The notes: a model not told the origin generated them from the sequence alone. A stretch of DNA of 64,000 bases from Alphaproteobacteria bacterium (GCA_017465405.1 JAFTWG010000015.1:1-64000); one strand, 5' to 3'. Counted from the first letter of the stretch, positions 43,282 to 51,176 are shown. Numbers and translations are program-made.

Positions 43282-44199
43282 ATGGAACAAATAATCAATG
43301 CAGTTAAAAATTTATTAGATAAAGATAATACCGGACATGGATTTGAGCATATTGAAAAGGTTTATCAAAATGCTATGAAAATTTGTGATACCGAAAAAGA
43401 CGCAAACAGAGATATTGTTGCGTTGGCTGCCCTGCTTCATGATTGCGATGATTATAAACTGTTCGGAAATGAGTGTGCCGAAAAATTAATAAATTCTCGC
43501 AGAATTATGACTGATGCCAAAATAGGTAAAAGAATACAACAAAAAGTTTGTGACATTATTTCAACAATCGGATATTCTAAACGTATTAGTGGAATTGAGC
43601 CTAAAACCTTGGAAGGACAAATCGTATCCGATGCTGATATGTTGGAAGCTATGGGAGCCGTGGGTGTCGTGCGATGCCTGACTTTTGCACTTGCACGATG
43701 TAACAAATATGGCACTCCGCTTTTTGATAAAAATGTTTGGCCTGTGGTTAATATGTCTGCAAAGGAATATAAAGAAAAAGATCGTCGCTCTGATAATTTT
43801 ATAAATCATTTTTTTGAAAAAATGTTTAAACTTTACGAATTACTTCTAACTCCGGCAGGTAAAAAAGAAGGGGCCAGAAGACACGAATTTATGATTATCT
43901 TTTTAGAGCAATTTTTTGAAGAACAAGGTTGTGCCAACTGGAAAGCATACCTAAAAAATTATATACGAAGACAAAGAACATCCATAAGCACTAAAGCAAC
44001 ATTAAAAAGACTGAGAGATGCGGGAAAGAAACTGGGAAGACCCGTCGGTTCTAAAAAACCTAACAAATTAATTAAAAGAGAAGCTAAAATAAAAGAAATG
44101 CTAAAAAACAAGGAACCGAAGAGCAATATAGCAAAAAAATTAAAATGCTCTCGCTCGACATTGTACAGATATCTCAATACATGTATCAAGAAGAAATAG
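43282..44199 (+). CDS. HD-domain hydrolase fused to a serine-recombinase-type HTH tail
   Basis: The 305-residue protein has an N-terminal HD domain (GHGFEHIEKVYQNA, His53-Asp54 in ALLHDCDD, later DADMLEAMGAVG near 108-120), resembling YpgQ/YedJ nucleotide phosphohydrolases. From about residue 227 it changes to a very basic segment (RRQRTSISTKATLKRLRDAG, then KKLGRPVGSKK and SNIAKKLKCSRSTLYRYL). This is the E-helix end and helix-turn-helix of resolvase/invertase recombinases. The catalytic recombinase domain is absent. The frame is continuous, so it is a true fusion in this sequence. Confidence 0.78.
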   Translation: MEQIINAVKNLLDKDNTGHGFEHIEKVYQNAMKICDTEKDANRDIVALAALLHDCDDYKLFGNECAEKLINSRRIMTDAKIGKRIQQKVCDIISTIGYSKRISGIEPKTLEGQIVSDADMLEAMGAVGVVRCLTFALARCNKYGTPLFDKNVWPVVNMSAKEYKEKDRRSDNFINHFFEKMFKLYELLLTPAGKKEGARRHEFMIIFLEQFFEEQGCANWKAYLKNYIRRQRTSISTKATLKRLRDAGKKLGRPVGSKKPNKLIKREAKIKEMLKNKEPKSNIAKKLKCSRSTLYRYLNTCIKKK

Positions 44200-44201
44200 A
44201 T

Positions 44202-44720
44202 TTACTTAAAATCTTTATATATCCTTGAAGCTACTGCTCCATGGTCATTCTGATATTTGCCGTTGTATAATTTTATATCACCTAATGTTTTCCAAAACGT
44301 AAGTTGAGCGATTGGCATATTTTTATATAATTTTATCGGCATTGTTGCATACAGATGAAAAGTTACATTGCATTTGCAACCAATATCAAACAGTCCCGAT
44401 GTTATATGAATAAACAGTCCAAGCCTTGCAATGCTTGATTTTGCGTGAACGATGGGAACATAAAAATCGCTGCCGACAAATTCGTTACTGCTACCTAAGA
44501 GAAACTCTCCTCGTTTAAGTTCATATCCTTCATCAGGAATTTCAACTATTTTGGTATGAGGTTCTTTTTTAGGATCTAAAATTTCATCGGTATATATAAC
44601 CAACTTATCGGACAAAGTTAAATCGTAAGAATTGGTAGTTACCGCATCTTTATTAAACGGCTTAATAATGATATGATTATTTTTAACTTCTTCAATTATC
44701 TTATTACCTGTCAAAATCAT
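44202..44720 (-). CDS. dCTP deaminase-like protein, apparently lacking the catalytic Glu
   Basis: The 172-residue protein has the dCTP deaminase/dUTPase fold: LGSSNEFVGSDFY, then KSSIARLGL at 94-102. The family RSS motif is changed to KSS. The position where active enzymes have Glu (GxxGxxxLE) reads FHLYAT, with His122. It overlaps its paralogue by four bases. Loss of the catalytic Glu suggests a non-catalytic or altered role, possibly as a subunit with the paralogue. It is the last gene of a five-gene operon. Confidence 0.78.
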   Translation of the reverse strand: MILTGNKIIEEVKNNHIIIKPFNKDAVTTNSYDLTLSDKLVIYTDEILDPKKEPHTKIVEIPDEGYELKRGEFLLGSSNEFVGSDFYVPIVHAKSSIARLGLFIHITSGLFDIGCKCNVTFHLYATMPIKLYKNMPIAQLTFWKTLGDIKLYNGKYQNDHGAVASRIYKDFK

Positions 44721-45226
44721 TTTTTATGCCCCATAAATTGTTCTTCATATTTAGATATCTGCGGTTCGGAATAAGAAGAATATCCTTCTTCATATAATGT
44801 AGCCTCGCCATAATTTTCCCAAAACGAAATTTGTCCGATTATCATATTAGGGTAAATTCTTATCGGTTTTGCAGCAACGAGTTCTAAAGTCCATTTATGT
44901 TCTGCTCCGGTATGTCCCAAGTCGGCAGAAACTTGTAAAAAAAGGCCTAATCTTCCGGTAGAACTGCGCCCAATTAAGGACATGGCACATTTTTTACTGC
45001 CTAAAACTTCAAATGTATGTCCCAAATAAACTCGATTGGGATAAAGAACAAATCCCTCTTCGGGAATAGTAATGGTTTTATATTCTCCATTATCTTCTTT
45101 ATATGTCAAAATATCTCCCAAACGATAATTATAACTGTTTGGATTGAGTTGTTCTTCATTAAACGGACTAATGACAATATCCCCTTTTCGGAGATATTTT
45201 TTTATTTCCGAACCGGTAAGTATCAT
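44717..45226 (-). CDS. dCTP deaminase-like protein
   Basis: The 169-residue protein keeps the key features of dCTP deaminases and bifunctional dCTP deaminase/dUTPases: GRSSTGRLGL (residues 86-95) and Glu115 in WTLELVA, plus the trimer-forming PNMIIGQISF. Such enzymes turn dCTP to dUTP, supplying dTMP synthesis. Some act in phage defence by depleting dCTP. Here it is embedded with an MccF-like peptidase, an AlaRS-like protein and a methyltransferase rather than with housekeeping genes. Confidence 0.83.
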   Translation of the reverse strand: MILTGSEIKKYLRKGDIVISPFNEEQLNPNSYNYRLGDILTYKEDNGEYKTITIPEEGFVLYPNRVYLGHTFEVLGSKKCAMSLIGRSSTGRLGLFLQVSADLGHTGAEHKWTLELVAAKPIRIYPNMIIGQISFWENYGEATLYEEGYSSYSEPQISKYEEQFMGHKK

Positions 45227-45235
45227 TTATTTTCT

Positions 45236-46204
45236 CTAAAACTTCGTAATTTTAATTTTGTTACCGTCAATTATACAATGTCCGCCTATCGGAAAACTGA
45301 TAATCGGAGTGGTGTGACCAAAATCAACATTTCCGATAATAACTTTGCCTTCCAACTCTTTTTTGGATAAAACCATTTTTTCCAATAGCTCTTTCGTCAT
45401 CGGATTAGCAGGTTCAAAACGTCCGAAAACAATAGCTTTTACGGTTTTGAAGTCAGGATGTTGAGCAAGTGCCTGAAGGTTTCGATTAAACACCCAAAGT
45501 TCATGTTCGGCACAATGCTCTAAAAACAGAATACTGTCTTTTATATCAGGAAAATATGGAGTTCCTTTGAGCTCATCTAACAAACCTAAATTACCGCCGA
45601 CAATTTTCCCTTCAGCTTTGCCGGAATTGATAGTCCAAAATCCGTCATTTTTGATAAAGTTACGATTTTCCTGATCCAAAAACCACATATCATCAGACCA
45701 ATCAGGAGACGGCAAAAGTTCAAAAGATTCATCTTGCATAAAACATTTTTTGAAATATTCAACTGTATATTCTATGCCTTTTATCATCCCGAAACTTGAA
45801 AAATGCGGACCGGAATAAGTGACCAAACCGGTTTTAGCATAAATAGCATTGCATAAAGCGGTAATGTCCGAAAAACCGCAAAGTATTTTGGGATTGTTTT
45901 TAATCAATTCATAATCAATATGAGACAAAAGTTCATTAGAATTAAACCCGCCGATAGCCGTAAAAATTCCGTCAACGGTTTTGTCGGCAAAAGCTTCGTG
46001 CAAATCAGCAACTCGAGAAGCAACGGAAGATGATGCAACATCATCAAATTCATCGGCATTAGCTGAATATGATATGGTTATTCCCATTTCTGCAAAACAT
46101 TTTTTTGCAATTTCCCGACAGTCTTCTGATATTATTTTAAAGCTTCTTGATGGTGCAATAACTCTGATATGTGATCCCGGCTTTAATTTTTTTGGAAAAA
46201 TCAT
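45236..46204 (-). CDS. MccF-like S66 peptidase
   Basis: The 322-residue protein belongs to the S66 family, which includes LD-carboxypeptidases of murein recycling and the microcin C resistance protein MccF. Features favouring the MccF branch are AIGGFNSNELLSHIDY, CGFSDITAL (nucleophile Ser), GLVTYSGPHFSSFG and GKIVGGNLGLLDELKGT, with the C-terminal Glu/His region (ILFLEHC, GHTTPIISFP). MccF cleaves the amide between an amino acid and a nucleotide. The position in an operon with an AlaRS-like protein fits that type of substrate, but housekeeping murein recycling is not excluded. Confidence 0.82.
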   Translation of the reverse strand: MIFPKKLKPGSHIRVIAPSRSFKIISEDCREIAKKCFAEMGITISYSANADEFDDVASSSVASRVADLHEAFADKTVDGIFTAIGGFNSNELLSHIDYELIKNNPKILCGFSDITALCNAIYAKTGLVTYSGPHFSSFGMIKGIEYTVEYFKKCFMQDESFELLPSPDWSDDMWFLDQENRNFIKNDGFWTINSGKAEGKIVGGNLGLLDELKGTPYFPDIKDSILFLEHCAEHELWVFNRNLQALAQHPDFKTVKAIVFGRFEPANPMTKELLEKMVLSKKELEGKVIIGNVDFGHTTPIISFPIGGHCIIDGNKIKITKF

Positions 46205-46207
46205 ATT

Positions 46208-47248
46208 CTACTCTCCTCTTTGTTTTTTTAATGCCATAATTGTTGCTGCATTAAGTTCTGTAATTCTTTGCTCTTTATTGTTGAACAAATCTATAATTTT
46301 TTGATGTGCTTTTACATCTCCAAAAATCATATTTTCGGAATGATATATAAGTTTTGAAGTTTCTTCAATTCTTAAACCGCTTTTATTAGCAAAATAATGC
46401 AAACCTCGCAAATATTTGTATAAAATTTTGGTTTGTTCATCTTTGCTGGAAGGCTCTAAACCTTCTCGCATGAGCGCTAAAGAAGTTATTATACAATCCT
46501 TAAATTTATGATTGGTATTTAAGGCTTCGTGATTTGGAAAAGGATAACAGTCCAAAATGTGGGGCAATCCGCAAGTTTGTTGCATAATTGACGTATCTCC
46601 GAATCCTACTTCCAAAAACAAAGGCTTTTTTGTATCTTTATCTCGAAATATAATATAATTTCCTACATCGGAAAATTCTCCGCTTTGCCTGTTTTTAACC
46701 GCAAAATTAAAGTTTTCGCCATAAACACCTTCTATTCCGATTGTGTGACGATAATACTTTTCCGGATGAGCATCATATTCAACCGTAGGGTGTCCGGTCA
46801 TTTCAACAATTTTCATCAATTCTTCATCTTGACTATTCACCCGCAGGAGAAGTTCATCATCTTCAAGACCTACCGTATTTTTGAAAAAATCTAATGCTTG
46901 AAATATGGCATCTTCTTTACCTTCATACGGCCTTACCGTATCTATGTTAGTGAAATATGAACCCCATTTGGGATTAACTTCATCATTAAGCATATTTCGA
47001 ATATTTCTGGTTCTTACCGAATCCTGTGCTAAAACCAATCCTGTTTCTGGAATATTTAACGGAAGAACATAATCTTTTTTCAAAGCAGAAACCGCAGCTC
47101 CGATAAAAATAACACTTTTATCTTCTTTTGAAGTTATCGGTAAAGGGGTAGCTTGTTGATAACCGTATTTTTTATAATTATCAATAAATCCTTTTACTAA
47201 AGCTTGACGATAATCATTTAGTTCTTTTGCATATGGAGGAAAAAACAT
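46208..47248 (-). CDS. Alanyl-tRNA synthetase-like stand-alone protein
   Basis: The 346-residue protein resembles the N-terminal half of AlaRS. It has VLAQDSVRTRNIRNMLND, YFTNIDTVRPYEGKEDAIFQALDFFKNTVGLEDDELLLRV and GLEPSSKDEQTKILYKYLRG. These parallel the AlaRS motif 2 region, catalytic core and tRNA-binding region. AlaRS is about 870 residues; the editing and C-Ala domains are absent. The AlaRS motif 3 GLER appears as GLPH, losing the Arg. It may activate an amino acid without charging tRNA, or be inactive. The function is inferred, not known. The ATG directly follows the stop of the methyltransferase gene. Confidence 0.7.
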   Translation of the reverse strand: MFFPPYAKELNDYRQALVKGFIDNYKKYGYQQATPLPITSKEDKSVIFIGAAVSALKKDYVLPLNIPETGLVLAQDSVRTRNIRNMLNDEVNPKWGSYFTNIDTVRPYEGKEDAIFQALDFFKNTVGLEDDELLLRVNSQDEELMKIVEMTGHPTVEYDAHPEKYYRHTIGIEGVYGENFNFAVKNRQSGEFSDVGNYIIFRDKDTKKPLFLEVGFGDTSIMQQTCGLPHILDCYPFPNHEALNTNHKFKDCIITSLALMREGLEPSSKDEQTKILYKYLRGLHYFANKSGLRIEETSKLIYHSENMIFGDVKAHQKIIDLFNNKEQRITELNAATIMALKKQRGE

Positions 47249-48040
47249 TTATCTTCCTTTCTGTTGTTTAACACAATCAAAAATCAATTCTCCGGGGTAC
47301 TGCCCTTTTCCAAACGGAGTTCTGTCAAAATTACCATACAAGTTTTCAACGGTCAGCTGATTTTTTTCCAAAATTAGTGCCGCCGTATCTTTGAAAAAGT
47401 AACTGGTAGTATATAACCATTCGAAATTGTCTTTTTTACCGTCAGTATATTCTACGGAATAATATTCTTCAATATTTTGAGTTTGTTTGAAATAGTCCCG
47501 TTCATTAACTTCAACTCTGCGATTGATTTTATTTCCGTCATCATCGTGATAATTGCCTTCAAATACAACACCTTCTCGGACCAACATATGAACCCAAGGA
47601 TTAAACAAATCAAAAACGAAACGACCGTCATCGGTAAGCAAGTCTTTTGTACTTTTTACAAATCGGTCCATTTCATCCAATGATTGACAATGTTGCATAA
47701 CTCTAAACGGAGCAAATGCAAAAGAAAATTTTTCTTTAGGTTGGAAATCATTTATATCGGTAACGTGAGTTACAATATTTTTTATTCCCTCTCTTGCGGC
47801 TTTTTCTTTCAAAACTTCAATTTCATCACCAATAACGTCAACGGCATGAAATTCTAAATCAGGATTGCGGGCGGCTATCGGTAACAAAACTCTGCCCGTA
47901 CCGGCGCCTATTTCAATAACCTTATTATTGGAAAAAGTTTTTTTATATTCTTTTAATATCCTGTTATAGAAAGCAATATCCTCTTTACGCTCTTTATAAA
48001 ATATATCGTAAAGTTCTGATGCGTTTTTATATCTTTTCAT
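47249..48040 (-). CDS. Class I SAM-dependent methyltransferase, first gene of the operon
   Basis: The 263-residue protein has the SAM motif VIEIGAGTGRVLLPI (about 41-55), acidic loop FHAVDV and the FAFAPFRVMQH segment. The substrate is unknown. A GAGG ribosome binding site precedes the ATG. It heads the five-gene minus-strand operon, all gaps being nine bases or fewer. Confidence 0.86.
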   Translation of the reverse strand: MKRYKNASELYDIFYKERKEDIAFYNRILKEYKKTFSNNKVIEIGAGTGRVLLPIAARNPDLEFHAVDVIGDEIEVLKEKAAREGIKNIVTHVTDINDFQPKEKFSFAFAPFRVMQHCQSLDEMDRFVKSTKDLLTDDGRFVFDLFNPWVHMLVREGVVFEGNYHDDDGNKINRRVEVNERDYFKQTQNIEEYYSVEYTDGKKDNFEWLYTTSYFFKDTAALILEKNQLTVENLYGNFDRTPFGKGQYPGELIFDCVKQQKGR

Positions 48041-48930: not shown

Positions 48931-48967
48931 CAAAAATCCCTTTGATAAAAATCAAAGGGATTTTTTT
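48931..48967. terminator. Bidirectional terminator overlapping the 49980- gene end
   Basis: AAAATCCCTTTGAT and ATCAAAGGGATTTT pair around a short loop. On the minus strand the stop codon and last codons (KKSL) of the neighbouring gene lie within the stem. Confidence 0.85.
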
Positions 48968-49980
48968 AACATATCTATATGTTGTTGATAGATTAAATCT
49001 TTGTCATAATATTCAGCATACATTTTTTCTTTCGGCCGAGGTCTGATATTGTTTAATCCTAAAAATCCGGTATTTACACTATTATAATATGGATTATTTT
49101 CGGTAATTTTATGAGTTATTATCCTTTGTGCAACTTGCCAATTTCCGGCAAACTGTACATTATTAACATATTGATTTAAATCATTTTCATCAAACTTAAT
49201 AATCTGAAAACTGGTTAAATATGAAAACTTCAATAATTCTCGGCATAGTTTACTTTTGTAAAACCCGTGTTGCTCACGATAATCTATATTATCAAACACT
49301 TTTTTTGATTGTTCTTCCAACATTATAATCGCAGGAATATATTTGTGTTCTTCTAACGGTTCTCCCCTATCGGAAAATGCTTTAATCATCTTGTCATTTA
49401 TTTTTTCAAGAGCTTTCATATAAGTTGGTTGATGAAGATCATTATCTTTATTATGATAAAGATTTGATAATAATAAATCTAATTCTTCATCTCCTGTTTT
49501 AGGGCAATTTAAGACAACATAACTCCGTTTTTCTACAGTATCACGTAAAACTTCTGCCACACTTACATTTTCATATTGTTTACCAACTTCGTTAAAACTC
49601 ATATAATCAAAAACATAAATTGTATGTTTTTCATCATATTTGCTTAAATCCGCCCAATATGACTCTCTTCCCTCATCAAAACTCCAGTCAGTGACTATTT
49701 TCTTTCCGTCTTTCACATCTATTGATATATTTGGTATCCCTAAACATTGGCTTTCTATGTTTTCAATATCCGCTATAAGAGTGTCTTTGTCCTTTGTTTG
49801 ATAATATCTGTACAAAGCTGATAACATATCATCGGCATACCATGTACCATTATGAATAAGCTTGCGAACAGCCTCTCCATCTTGCATCGCCTGACTTAAA
49901 AAAAGACCATTTAACCGGTTTCCGTTACCGGTATATTCTGGTTTTTGTAATCTGACAGCATTCGGGCAAGATAATTCCAT
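48952..49980 (-). CDS. Hypothetical protein, 342 residues
   Basis: No signal peptide or membrane segment is seen. The N-terminus (CPNAVRLQKPEYTGNGNRLNGLFLSQAMQDG) and the central HTIYVFDYMSFNEVG segment are distinctive, but I recognise no family. Composition is AT-rich like the host. It lies 18 bases downstream of the N-formylglutamate-amidohydrolase-like gene with a GAGAGA-type site, so the two are likely one operon. Confidence 0.65.
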   Translation of the reverse strand: MELSCPNAVRLQKPEYTGNGNRLNGLFLSQAMQDGEAVRKLIHNGTWYADDMLSALYRYYQTKDKDTLIADIENIESQCLGIPNISIDVKDGKKIVTDWSFDEGRESYWADLSKYDEKHTIYVFDYMSFNEVGKQYENVSVAEVLRDTVEKRSYVVLNCPKTGDEELDLLLSNLYHNKDNDLHQPTYMKALEKINDKMIKAFSDRGEPLEEHKYIPAIIMLEEQSKKVFDNIDYREQHGFYKSKLCRELLKFSYLTSFQIIKFDENDLNQYVNNVQFAGNWQVAQRIITHKITENNPYYNSVNTGFLGLNNIRPRPKEKMYAEYYDKDLIYQQHIDMLKKSL

Positions 49981-49998: not shown

Positions 49999-50619
49999 TT
50001 ACAACTTATATAAACCTGTGATTTTTTCTAACATTGGAATAGTTATTTTTTGTACATTTTCCTGATTATTATAAAAATCTCGTAAATGACGTCGCATTTC
50101 CATTTGAATAACGTTAGGTTTATTATACATTTTTTGATAGCATCCGGTTAAACCGTGTAATCCCATATAGTTTTCATGATTGATTGCTACTCGCAAATCA
50201 AAACTTTGTATAATTTGAGCAATCTCTTGTAAATAGGGATAATTATTCTTATCCATTTCCCCTATTCCCAAACAAATATCATAAGGAATATCTTTCTCAA
50301 ATCCGTGAATATCTAAAAAATAATGTTTTTGCAAATTGCTATCGGTAATAAAATCGGAAATAAGAGCTTTGTACGATACATATTTTTGTCTTATAATGGC
50401 TGATGTTTCTGTTGTTTCACCAACATATTGTGTTATTGCTCCGGTATATAAATCGGAAAACCGTTCTTTTTGATTTATAAAAATACGGGTAGAATGAGGC
50501 GCAGTTAATATAAGTTTTGTTCCTTTGTCATAAAATTTATATACACAAGAAGATGTTTCATCTCCGTGCGAACAGTTTTGATGATAAAACTCATTATATT
50601 TTTTCAAAATTTCAATCAT
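49999..50619 (-). CDS. N-formylglutamate amidohydrolase-like protein
   Basis: The 206-residue version shows LILTAPHSTRIF near residue 35 and YFLDIHGFEKD near 103, matching the metal-binding pattern of the N-formylglutamate deformylase/zinc amidase family, and a later NHENYMGLHG. The frame is open to 50754, but that would run through the divergent Nudix start and promoter, so the ATG at 50619 is chosen despite a weak ribosome binding site. The substrate is unknown. Confidence 0.65.
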   Translation of the reverse strand: MIEILKKYNEFYHQNCSHGDETSSCVYKFYDKGTKLILTAPHSTRIFINQKERFSDLYTGAITQYVGETTETSAIIRQKYVSYKALISDFITDSNLQKHYFLDIHGFEKDIPYDICLGIGEMDKNNYPYLQEIAQIIQSFDLRVAINHENYMGLHGLTGCYQKMYNKPNVIQMEMRRHLRDFYNNQENVQKITIPMLEKITGLYKL

Positions 50620-50665
50620 AAGAAGATAATAACATATATTTTTATTATTTCCAATAAAGAAAACA

Positions 50666-50694
50666 TTGATAACATACTTATTTTGGACTATTAT
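50666..50694 (+). promoter_or_regulatory. Promoter of the second Nudix gene
   Basis: TTGATA (50666-50671) and TATTAT (50689-50694), 17 bases apart, lie about 36 bases before the ATG at 50730. Confidence 0.55.
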
Positions 50695-50729
50695 GGGAGT
50701 GTTTATTAAATAACTTAAACGAGGAAAAA

Positions 50730-51176
50730 ATGAGAAAAGAAGCTTCTTTATCAATTATCGAGGACACCGTAAACCACAAATTTTTAATGATAAGACACCA
50801 AAGAGGCATTAATAAAGGATGTATTAATTTCCCCGGAGGCAAAAAAGAAGAAGGCGAGACCATGGAAGAATGTGTTCGCCGAGAAACATTGGAAGAAACA
50901 GGCTTAACTATCGAAAATCCGGTTCAGGTCGGGTATGTCGAGTTTCCGACAATGAACTTCTATGTTCATATATTTAGGAGTACCAAATATTCCGGTACAA
51001 TTAAGGGCAAAGAAGATGAAGTTAACGCTTTTTGGCAAGATGCAGATAAGATTCCGTACGAAGAAATGCGTGAAGCAGATAAAAACTTTTTGCCCGATAT
51101 ATTGGCCGGAAAATATGTCAAAAGAAGATATATGTACGACGAAAATTTCAAACTAAATGAAATTATCGATCTGTAA
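50730..51176 (+). CDS. Nudix hydrolase, MutT/8-oxo-dGTPase-like
   Basis: The 148-residue protein has a complete Nudix box (GGKKEEGETMEECVRRETLEETG, about residues 31-53). Combined with LMIRHQRGINKGCINFPGG, it resembles MutT-type nucleotide sanitation enzymes acting on oxidised purine nucleotides. The exact substrate is not determined. It has an AACGAGGAAA site and precedes the 51192 gene by 15 bases. Confidence 0.9.
   Translation: MRKEASLSIIEDTVNHKFLMIRHQRGINKGCINFPGGKKEEGETMEECVRRETLEETGLTIENPVQVGYVEFPTMNFYVHIFRSTKYSGTIKGKEDEVNAFWQDADKIPYEEMREADKNFLPDILAGKYVKRRYMYDENFKLNEIIDL

Follow-up and report, generated by a model that had tools for sequence, protein, structure and literature searches.

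A five-gene operon of an alphaproteobacterium as a candidate AlaRS-derived pathway to an aminoacyl-nucleotide

What could a bacterium do with a methyltransferase, a truncated alanyl-tRNA synthetase (AlaRS), an S66 peptidase and two dCTP-deaminase-like (DCD) proteins encoded in a single operon? The locus that raises this question lies at 44202-48040 of a 64,000-nucleotide stretch of DNA from an uncultured gut alphaproteobacterium (hereafter, the window) and consists of five open reading frames, which all run on the minus strand. Listed in the direction of transcription, they encode a class I SAM-dependent methyltransferase (MT; 47249..48040, 263 residues, PF13847 with 6.6e-12), an AlaRS-like protein (46208..47248, 346 residues), an S66 peptidase (45236..46204, 322 residues, S66 N with 1.9e-32 and S66 C with 3.2e-25), DCD2 (44717..45226, 169 residues, PF22769 with 3.3e-31), and DCD1 (44202..44720, 172 residues, PF22769 with 5.6e-32; TIGR02274, 104.5 bits over cut-off). 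The genes are spaced by 0, 3, and 9 nt, followed by a 4-nt overlap between DCD2 and DCD1; reading frames and family matches agree with an earlier, sequence-only reading of this DNA, which had proposed a five-gene operon of these families with gaps of nine bases or fewer, or overlaps. A promoter had also been placed before the first gene. A GAGG ribosome-binding site and a possible sigma-70-type element, TTGACT-16-TATAAG (48095-48068, minus strand), are indeed found ahead of the MT gene, but promoter-like sites are not in excess in the region (18 versus 19.4 ± 4.7 in shuffles), and the element is not statistically distinguishable from chance. No anomaly in composition was found (G+C of 34.1% in the operon and 34.5% in the window). 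Convergent with DCD1, and two bases from it, is a plus-strand gene (43282-44199) for a protein that has an HD domain and, at its C-terminus, an HTH of the resolvase type. An HD gene without a blast match to this protein overlaps the methyltransferase gene of a related locus (L024, 6495-7142). At 48952-49980 (minus strand), a 342-residue protein without Pfam or NCBIfam match is encoded, adjoined by a weak N-formylglutamate amidohydrolase-like gene (49999-50754).

The arrangement goes beyond chance. In three congeneric genomes, all five genes recur in the identical order MT, AlaRS-like, S66, DCD2, DCD1, with identities to the window proteins of 75-79%, 61-63%, 69-73%, 78-82%, and 82-85%, respectively. 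None of the flanking genes tested from the window lies beside the operon in these congeners, so that the operon has been passed on as one piece, in differing surroundings. Searching genome contigs with the single AlaRS-like sequence gave no match, but an alignment-based search found relatives in other Alphaproteobacteria, in Candidatus Colwellbacteria, in a Bacillota genome (Coprosoma), and in an unassigned bacterium, and further relatives came from searching the window's family and the phylum of the Colwellbacteria genome. This yielded 18 AlaRS-like loci including the window, mostly from metagenome assemblies; some loci (L072, L074, L077) stop at contig edges. An S66 gene lies within about 1 kb of the AlaRS-like gene in 17 of the 18, where random placement would, by a rough estimate, give about 0.8% per locus. 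Two genomes (G1305, G1280) of a second phylum, that of the Colwellbacteria genome, have a counterpart of each of the five genes, with identities of 25-50%. The homologues are thus linked rather than scattered. Within the window's family, AlaRS-like genes are patchily distributed, with 10 carriers among 152 genomes, and a class-wide search of 385 genomes returned, besides the window protein, only canonical AlaRS.

The AlaRS-like protein itself matches tRNA-synt_2c with 1.9e-5 and 23.9 bits, under the cut-off of 30.3, and a PDB sequence search with the single sequence produced chance asparaginase matches only. The AlphaFold model (pLDDT 88) matches AlaRS alone in Foldseek and VIA, with Z scores of 28-29 across more than 300 residues; the best VIA match is AlaRS 3htz (Z 29.3, 318 residues), whereas the next class II chain that is not an AlaRS scores 15.6. 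Profile alignment of the family to canonical AlaRS (hhalign, 99.2%) points the same way. The fold takes in the catalytic core as well as the first helical, tRNA-recognition domain, and lacks the editing and C-Ala domains. The genome has a separate, normal full-length AlaRS of 876 residues elsewhere. The active site was compared in 16 aligned members. The motif-2 Arg is kept (Arg79 in the window protein), but the motif-3 Arg that binds ATP is lost in all 16 and replaced by Ser, Thr, or Lys (Ser220 in the window). The Asp of the amino-acid site has become Glu in 14 of the 16 (Glu213 in the window) and Ala in the other two, and the Asn of this site (N197) is likewise kept in 14, with Gln in L072 and L073 only. 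Loss of the motif-3 Arg disfavors adenylate synthesis, and the suggestion that this protein could make aminoacyl-adenylates is probably wrong, although the motif-2 Arg has persisted. Judged from these residues and by analogy with AcmF of the ascamycin pathway, it is probably a transferase that uses aminoacyl-tRNA.

For the S66 protein, grouping with the murein LD-carboxypeptidases would have spoken against a link to aminoacyl-nucleotides. The window protein scores 367 bits with BA_5613 (4e5s, MccF-like), 147 with BaMccF, 117 with EcMccF, and 78 with a murein tetrapeptide carboxypeptidase. Its catalytic triad, Ser112-Glu229-His297, aligns residue by residue with S118/E243/H311 of Escherichia coli MccF. 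In the tree, it falls in a clade with Lmo1638 and with the S66 proteins encoded in most of the other AlaRS-like clusters; E. coli LdcA, the genome's own LdcA-like protein, and also E. coli MccF lie outside, on a tree whose outer and LdcA branches are long, and the proteins of L072 and L087/L088 are placed elsewhere. The genome's second S66 gene is the LdcA-like one, located beside an Mpl-like ligase gene. By scores and alignment, the window S66 is MccF-like rather than LdcA-like. MccF breaks the carboxamide bond of an aminoacyl-nucleotide (PMC9239234), and HIT enzymes, which occur in some of the related clusters, break the phosphoramide bond (PMC7157772).

The two DCD proteins differ at the catalytic Glu. 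In alignments, DCD2 has this Glu along with the catalytic Ser and Arg, whereas the Glu position of DCD1 is occupied by His in the window and its congeners and by Gln or Met elsewhere; the division at the Glu holds in all eight pairs compared. In the PDB alignment, this position is Gln in 3gf0 and Glu in 1ogh. DCD1 is nonetheless better conserved than any other protein of the operon, and since DCD2 has kept the Glu that DCD1 lost, the two likely form a heteromer of an active and an inactive subunit. It is DCD1 that passes the NCBIfam cut-off for dCTP deaminase, and DCD2 that fails it. Among 128 genomes from the window's family, only 6 have DCD genes, two in tandem in each case; a housekeeping role, which we had considered, was rejected on account of the 122 relatives without any DCD. 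Five of the six also contain an AlaRS-like gene (Fisher p ~5.5e-6, assuming that all ten AlaRS-like genomes are within the 128-genome sample). The sixth is a fragmentary genome in which the short contig breaks inside a cluster of the PLP-decarboxylase type described below. Genome G000 contains no further DCD gene.

The AlaRS-like loci fall into six types that differ in their companions. Besides the window type, the second-phylum loci of G1305 and G1280 have AlaRS-like, MT, DCD2, DCD1, and a convergent S66 gene. In G494 and G422, a PLP decarboxylase, DCD1, DCD2, MT, and a protein without Pfam match, which looks phosphoribosyltransferase-like by eye, are found together, continuing in G494 with a cytidine deaminase, an NDK-like gene, and the AlaRS-like gene; G507, of the same type, has NDK, S66, and AlaRS-like. 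Another type combines a radical SAM enzyme (rSAM), a kinase-like protein, a HIT protein with an intact HAHLH motif, AlaRS-like, and S66. Four loci (L024, L029, L030, L086) contain an AsnRS-like gene of the AgnA type with MT and S66, and, variably, a P450, an amidohydrolase, a HAD protein, or two GlyRS copies. In L085, finally, the AlaRS-like protein and a methyltransferase are fused, by sequence, beside S66. One congener, G011, has two different clusters, of the window type (L013/L021) and of the rSAM/kinase/HIT type (L017). The GlyRS paralogues of L030 (4437-10143), inside an AgnA-like/AlaRS-like cluster, are possibly self-immunity copies. The S66 gene of L086 (7563-8539) is split over two frames, by decay or an assembly error.

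Taken together, the gene set, its linkage, the folds, the states of the catalytic residues, and the co-occurrence lead us to favor, with some confidence, an operon that makes and controls an aminoacylated nucleotide small molecule, probably pyrimidine-based; its substrates, order of reactions, product, and toxicity are our proposal. A cytidine-type nucleotide scaffold would be deaminated or shaped by DCD2, with the catalytically substituted DCD1 serving as a structural or substrate-binding subunit; which role the DCD proteins have in the pathway is a guess. The AlaRS-derived protein would then use aminoacyl-tRNA as donor and place the amino acid, probably a small one such as alanine, on an amine of the nucleotide, as AcmF does in finishing ascamycin, without forming the adenylate itself. 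The methyltransferase may cap the product, and the MccF-like S66 protein would hydrolyze the amide of the aminoacyl-nucleotide and thereby keep it from poisoning the cell's own aminoacyl-tRNA synthetase. By analogy, the operon most likely represents a compact version, derived from AlaRS, of the pathways that make aminoacyl-nucleotides, with control of the MccF type and chemistry of the agrocin-84/ascamycin type. Several observations argue for this: co-inheritance of the five gene types in three congeners and two second-phylum genomes, with S66 adjacency and the DCD pair; the separate full-length AlaRS and LdcA-like S66 in the same genome; the sister clusters with AgnA-type, NDK, cytidine deaminase, HIT, GlyRS, and P450 genes and the AlaRS-like/methyltransferase fusion; the agn operon, with agnA, a methyltransferase related to that of L073, a resistant LeuRS, and AgnC5; and the motif-3 Arg loss and AcmF-like Asp-to-Glu change (PMC12945691), together with the bonds that MccF (PMC9239234) and HIT enzymes (PMC7157772) cleave. 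Against it stand the lack of an exporter, a precursor peptide, and an adenylating enzyme in the operon, the absence of an AgnA-type gene, a window MT that does not match the agn one, and the consideration that a true dCTP deaminase would yield dUTP, an ordinary metabolite.

The enzymes could, however, also destroy such a compound rather than make it. In a resistance or detoxification module, S66, joined by HIT and NDK in relatives, would attack incoming aminoacyl-nucleotide toxins, the AlaRS-like protein would be a decoy or an inactivating aminoacyl transferase, and the DCDs and methyltransferase would modify the nucleotide. MccF and HIT enzymes are well established as degrading aminoacyl-nucleotides, the S66 and HIT families are known for self-immunity, and a DCD1 subunit without catalytic Glu would suit such a module; but the tailoring enzymes recurring in sister clusters (P450, amidohydrolase, rSAM, PLP decarboxylase, AgnA-type ligase) would be unneeded for resistance alone, and the extra GlyRS copies in L030 resemble the self-immunity of a producer. 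We consider this explanation unlikely. The absence of an exporter, which favors resistance, also suits a pathway that serves a cofactor, a signal, or the nucleotide pool inside the cell, in which S66 would recycle a non-toxic aminoacylated nucleotide. Many carriers have streamlined genomes of 1-1.6 Mb and G000 has no other DCD gene, as such a pathway might lead one to expect. A core cofactor, on the other hand, would hardly be spread so patchily (10 of 152 family genomes) with changing tailoring genes, a pattern reminiscent of secondary metabolism, and 122 of 128 relatives live without DCD; we regard this alternative as slightly less likely than resistance.

Anti-phage defense, the nucleotide-based alternative raised by the sequence-only reading, found no support. 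dCTP deaminases are a known defense class, and the patchy distribution would be in keeping with one; yet no specific PADLOC match was obtained, the sole match being to the methyltransferase domain of mad2, a part of that profile, no AlaRS-like homologues were found in phages, plasmids, or viral contigs, and the companions in sister clusters are biosynthetic, so that defense appears very improbable. A microcin C-like, RiPP-type reading was dropped, as no conserved precursor was found among the small open reading frames upstream of the operon. The earlier interpretation as a whole is thus partly supported: its proposal that the operon makes, modifies, or resists an aminoacyl-nucleotide compound is borne out by linkage across phyla, the MccF-like S66, and the sister-cluster genes, and its remark that no MccB-type enzyme or exporter is present holds for ThiF-type matches among the operon and flanking genes scanned and for exporters within the operon. 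Of the three findings that it had named as refuting, scattered homologues and an S66 of the murein type are contradicted by the data, and the third, an AlaRS-like protein without ATP binding, applies in part through the missing motif-3 Arg.

To our knowledge, few systems have turned an aminoacyl-tRNA synthetase fold to the biosynthesis of aminoacyl-nucleotide inhibitors, namely agrocin 84, ascamycin, and SB-203208. The present gene set joins agrocin-type and ascamycin-type logic in one family that spans several phyla of uncultured bacteria, and it would bring into such a pathway a dCTP-deaminase pair, for which no role of this kind is known. We tentatively suggest, short of an even chance, that these are undescribed, cross-phylum minimal clusters, present in uncultured gut Alphaproteobacteria and, in a second phylum, in bacteria with small genomes. 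In them, a pyrimidine aminoacyl-nucleotide would be built by an AlaRS-derived aminoacyl transferase that works without ATP and by an obligate DCD pair of one active and one inactive member. With only five genes, the operon would be a short path, open to direct testing, toward a new class of nucleotide natural products. DCD1, passing the dCTP deaminase cut-off despite its missing Glu, also calls for caution with automatic annotation.

In agrocin 84, a nucleotide carries a moiety that resembles an amino acid, and the self-immunity enzyme for it is AgnB2 (PMC4392301, PMC5059758). The agn operon on pAgK84 contains agnA, an adjacent methyltransferase, a resistant LeuRS, and, further along, the MccF-like AgnC5, and shares with the window operon a truncated class II synthetase-like enzyme, a SAM methyltransferase, and an MccF-like S66 (28% identity between AgnC5 and the window protein, E=4e-32). 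AgnA relatives (39% in L030) and extra synthetase copies are found in sister clusters. The synthetase-like enzyme is, however, AsnRS-derived in agn and AlaRS-derived in the window, where no AgnA-type gene is found in the operon, and the window operon has the DCD pair but neither a resistant LeuRS nor counterparts of other agn tailoring genes. The methyltransferase beside agnA is matched by that of the DCD-bearing L073 (E=1e-20), but not by the window MT at E 0.01. Sets related to agn genes also occur on Streptomyces and Bradyrhizobium plasmids, and a row of AsnRS-like, MT, S66, nucleoside phosphorylase, and leuS genes lies on a Xenorhabdus megaplasmid. On the symbiosis plasmid of Bradyrhizobium barranii (L095:3980-7765), S66, AgnA-like, HAD, and methyltransferase genes lie beside nodU, making an agrocin-like pathway on nodulation plasmids possible; B. 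elkanii has an AsnRS-like gene, too. A possible nucleotide natural-product cluster on a plasmid of Streptomyces sp. NBC_01707 (L101:8421-19623) comprises a condensation domain, AgnA-like, MT, a molybdopterin enzyme, an HGTP-type synthetase-like protein, S66, and a P450. Because defining genes are absent or were compared by description only, we do not assign the operon to the agrocin or ascamycin families themselves.

Among S66 peptidases, the window protein shares fold, triad, and the MccF-type W-S-D loop with MccF, BA_5613, and Lmo1638 of Listeria, the last at 49.5% identity (tblastn); unlike microcin C, the operon lacks an mccA peptide and a ThiF-type MccB enzyme. Both DCDs match the dCTP deaminase/DCD-DUT family PF22769, DCD2 with Ser, Arg, and Glu, but differ from it in always forming a tandem pair in the window's family and in the missing Glu of DCD1. 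AcmF of Streptomyces sp. 80H647 is described (PMC12945691) as a truncated AlaRS-like protein that has lost ATP residues, has Glu in place of Asp where the amino acid is bound, and takes alanine from Ala-tRNA to attach it to a nucleoside sulfamate. The window protein is similarly truncated to catalytic and tRNA-recognition parts, with an ATP residue lost and the same Asp-to-Glu change, whereas an Asn-to-Gln change in AcmF contrasts with the Asn kept in most AlaRS-like members. The acm cluster further differs in having its own AlaRS (AcmD), a hydrolase, AcmE, of the alpha/beta-hydrolase rather than the S66 type, and, in the passages covered, no reported DCD genes. That the window enzymes would work like AcmF and MccF is a case made on residues and folds; by this analogy, and as AcmF is described there, it is a close mechanistic precedent for the AlaRS-like protein of the operon.
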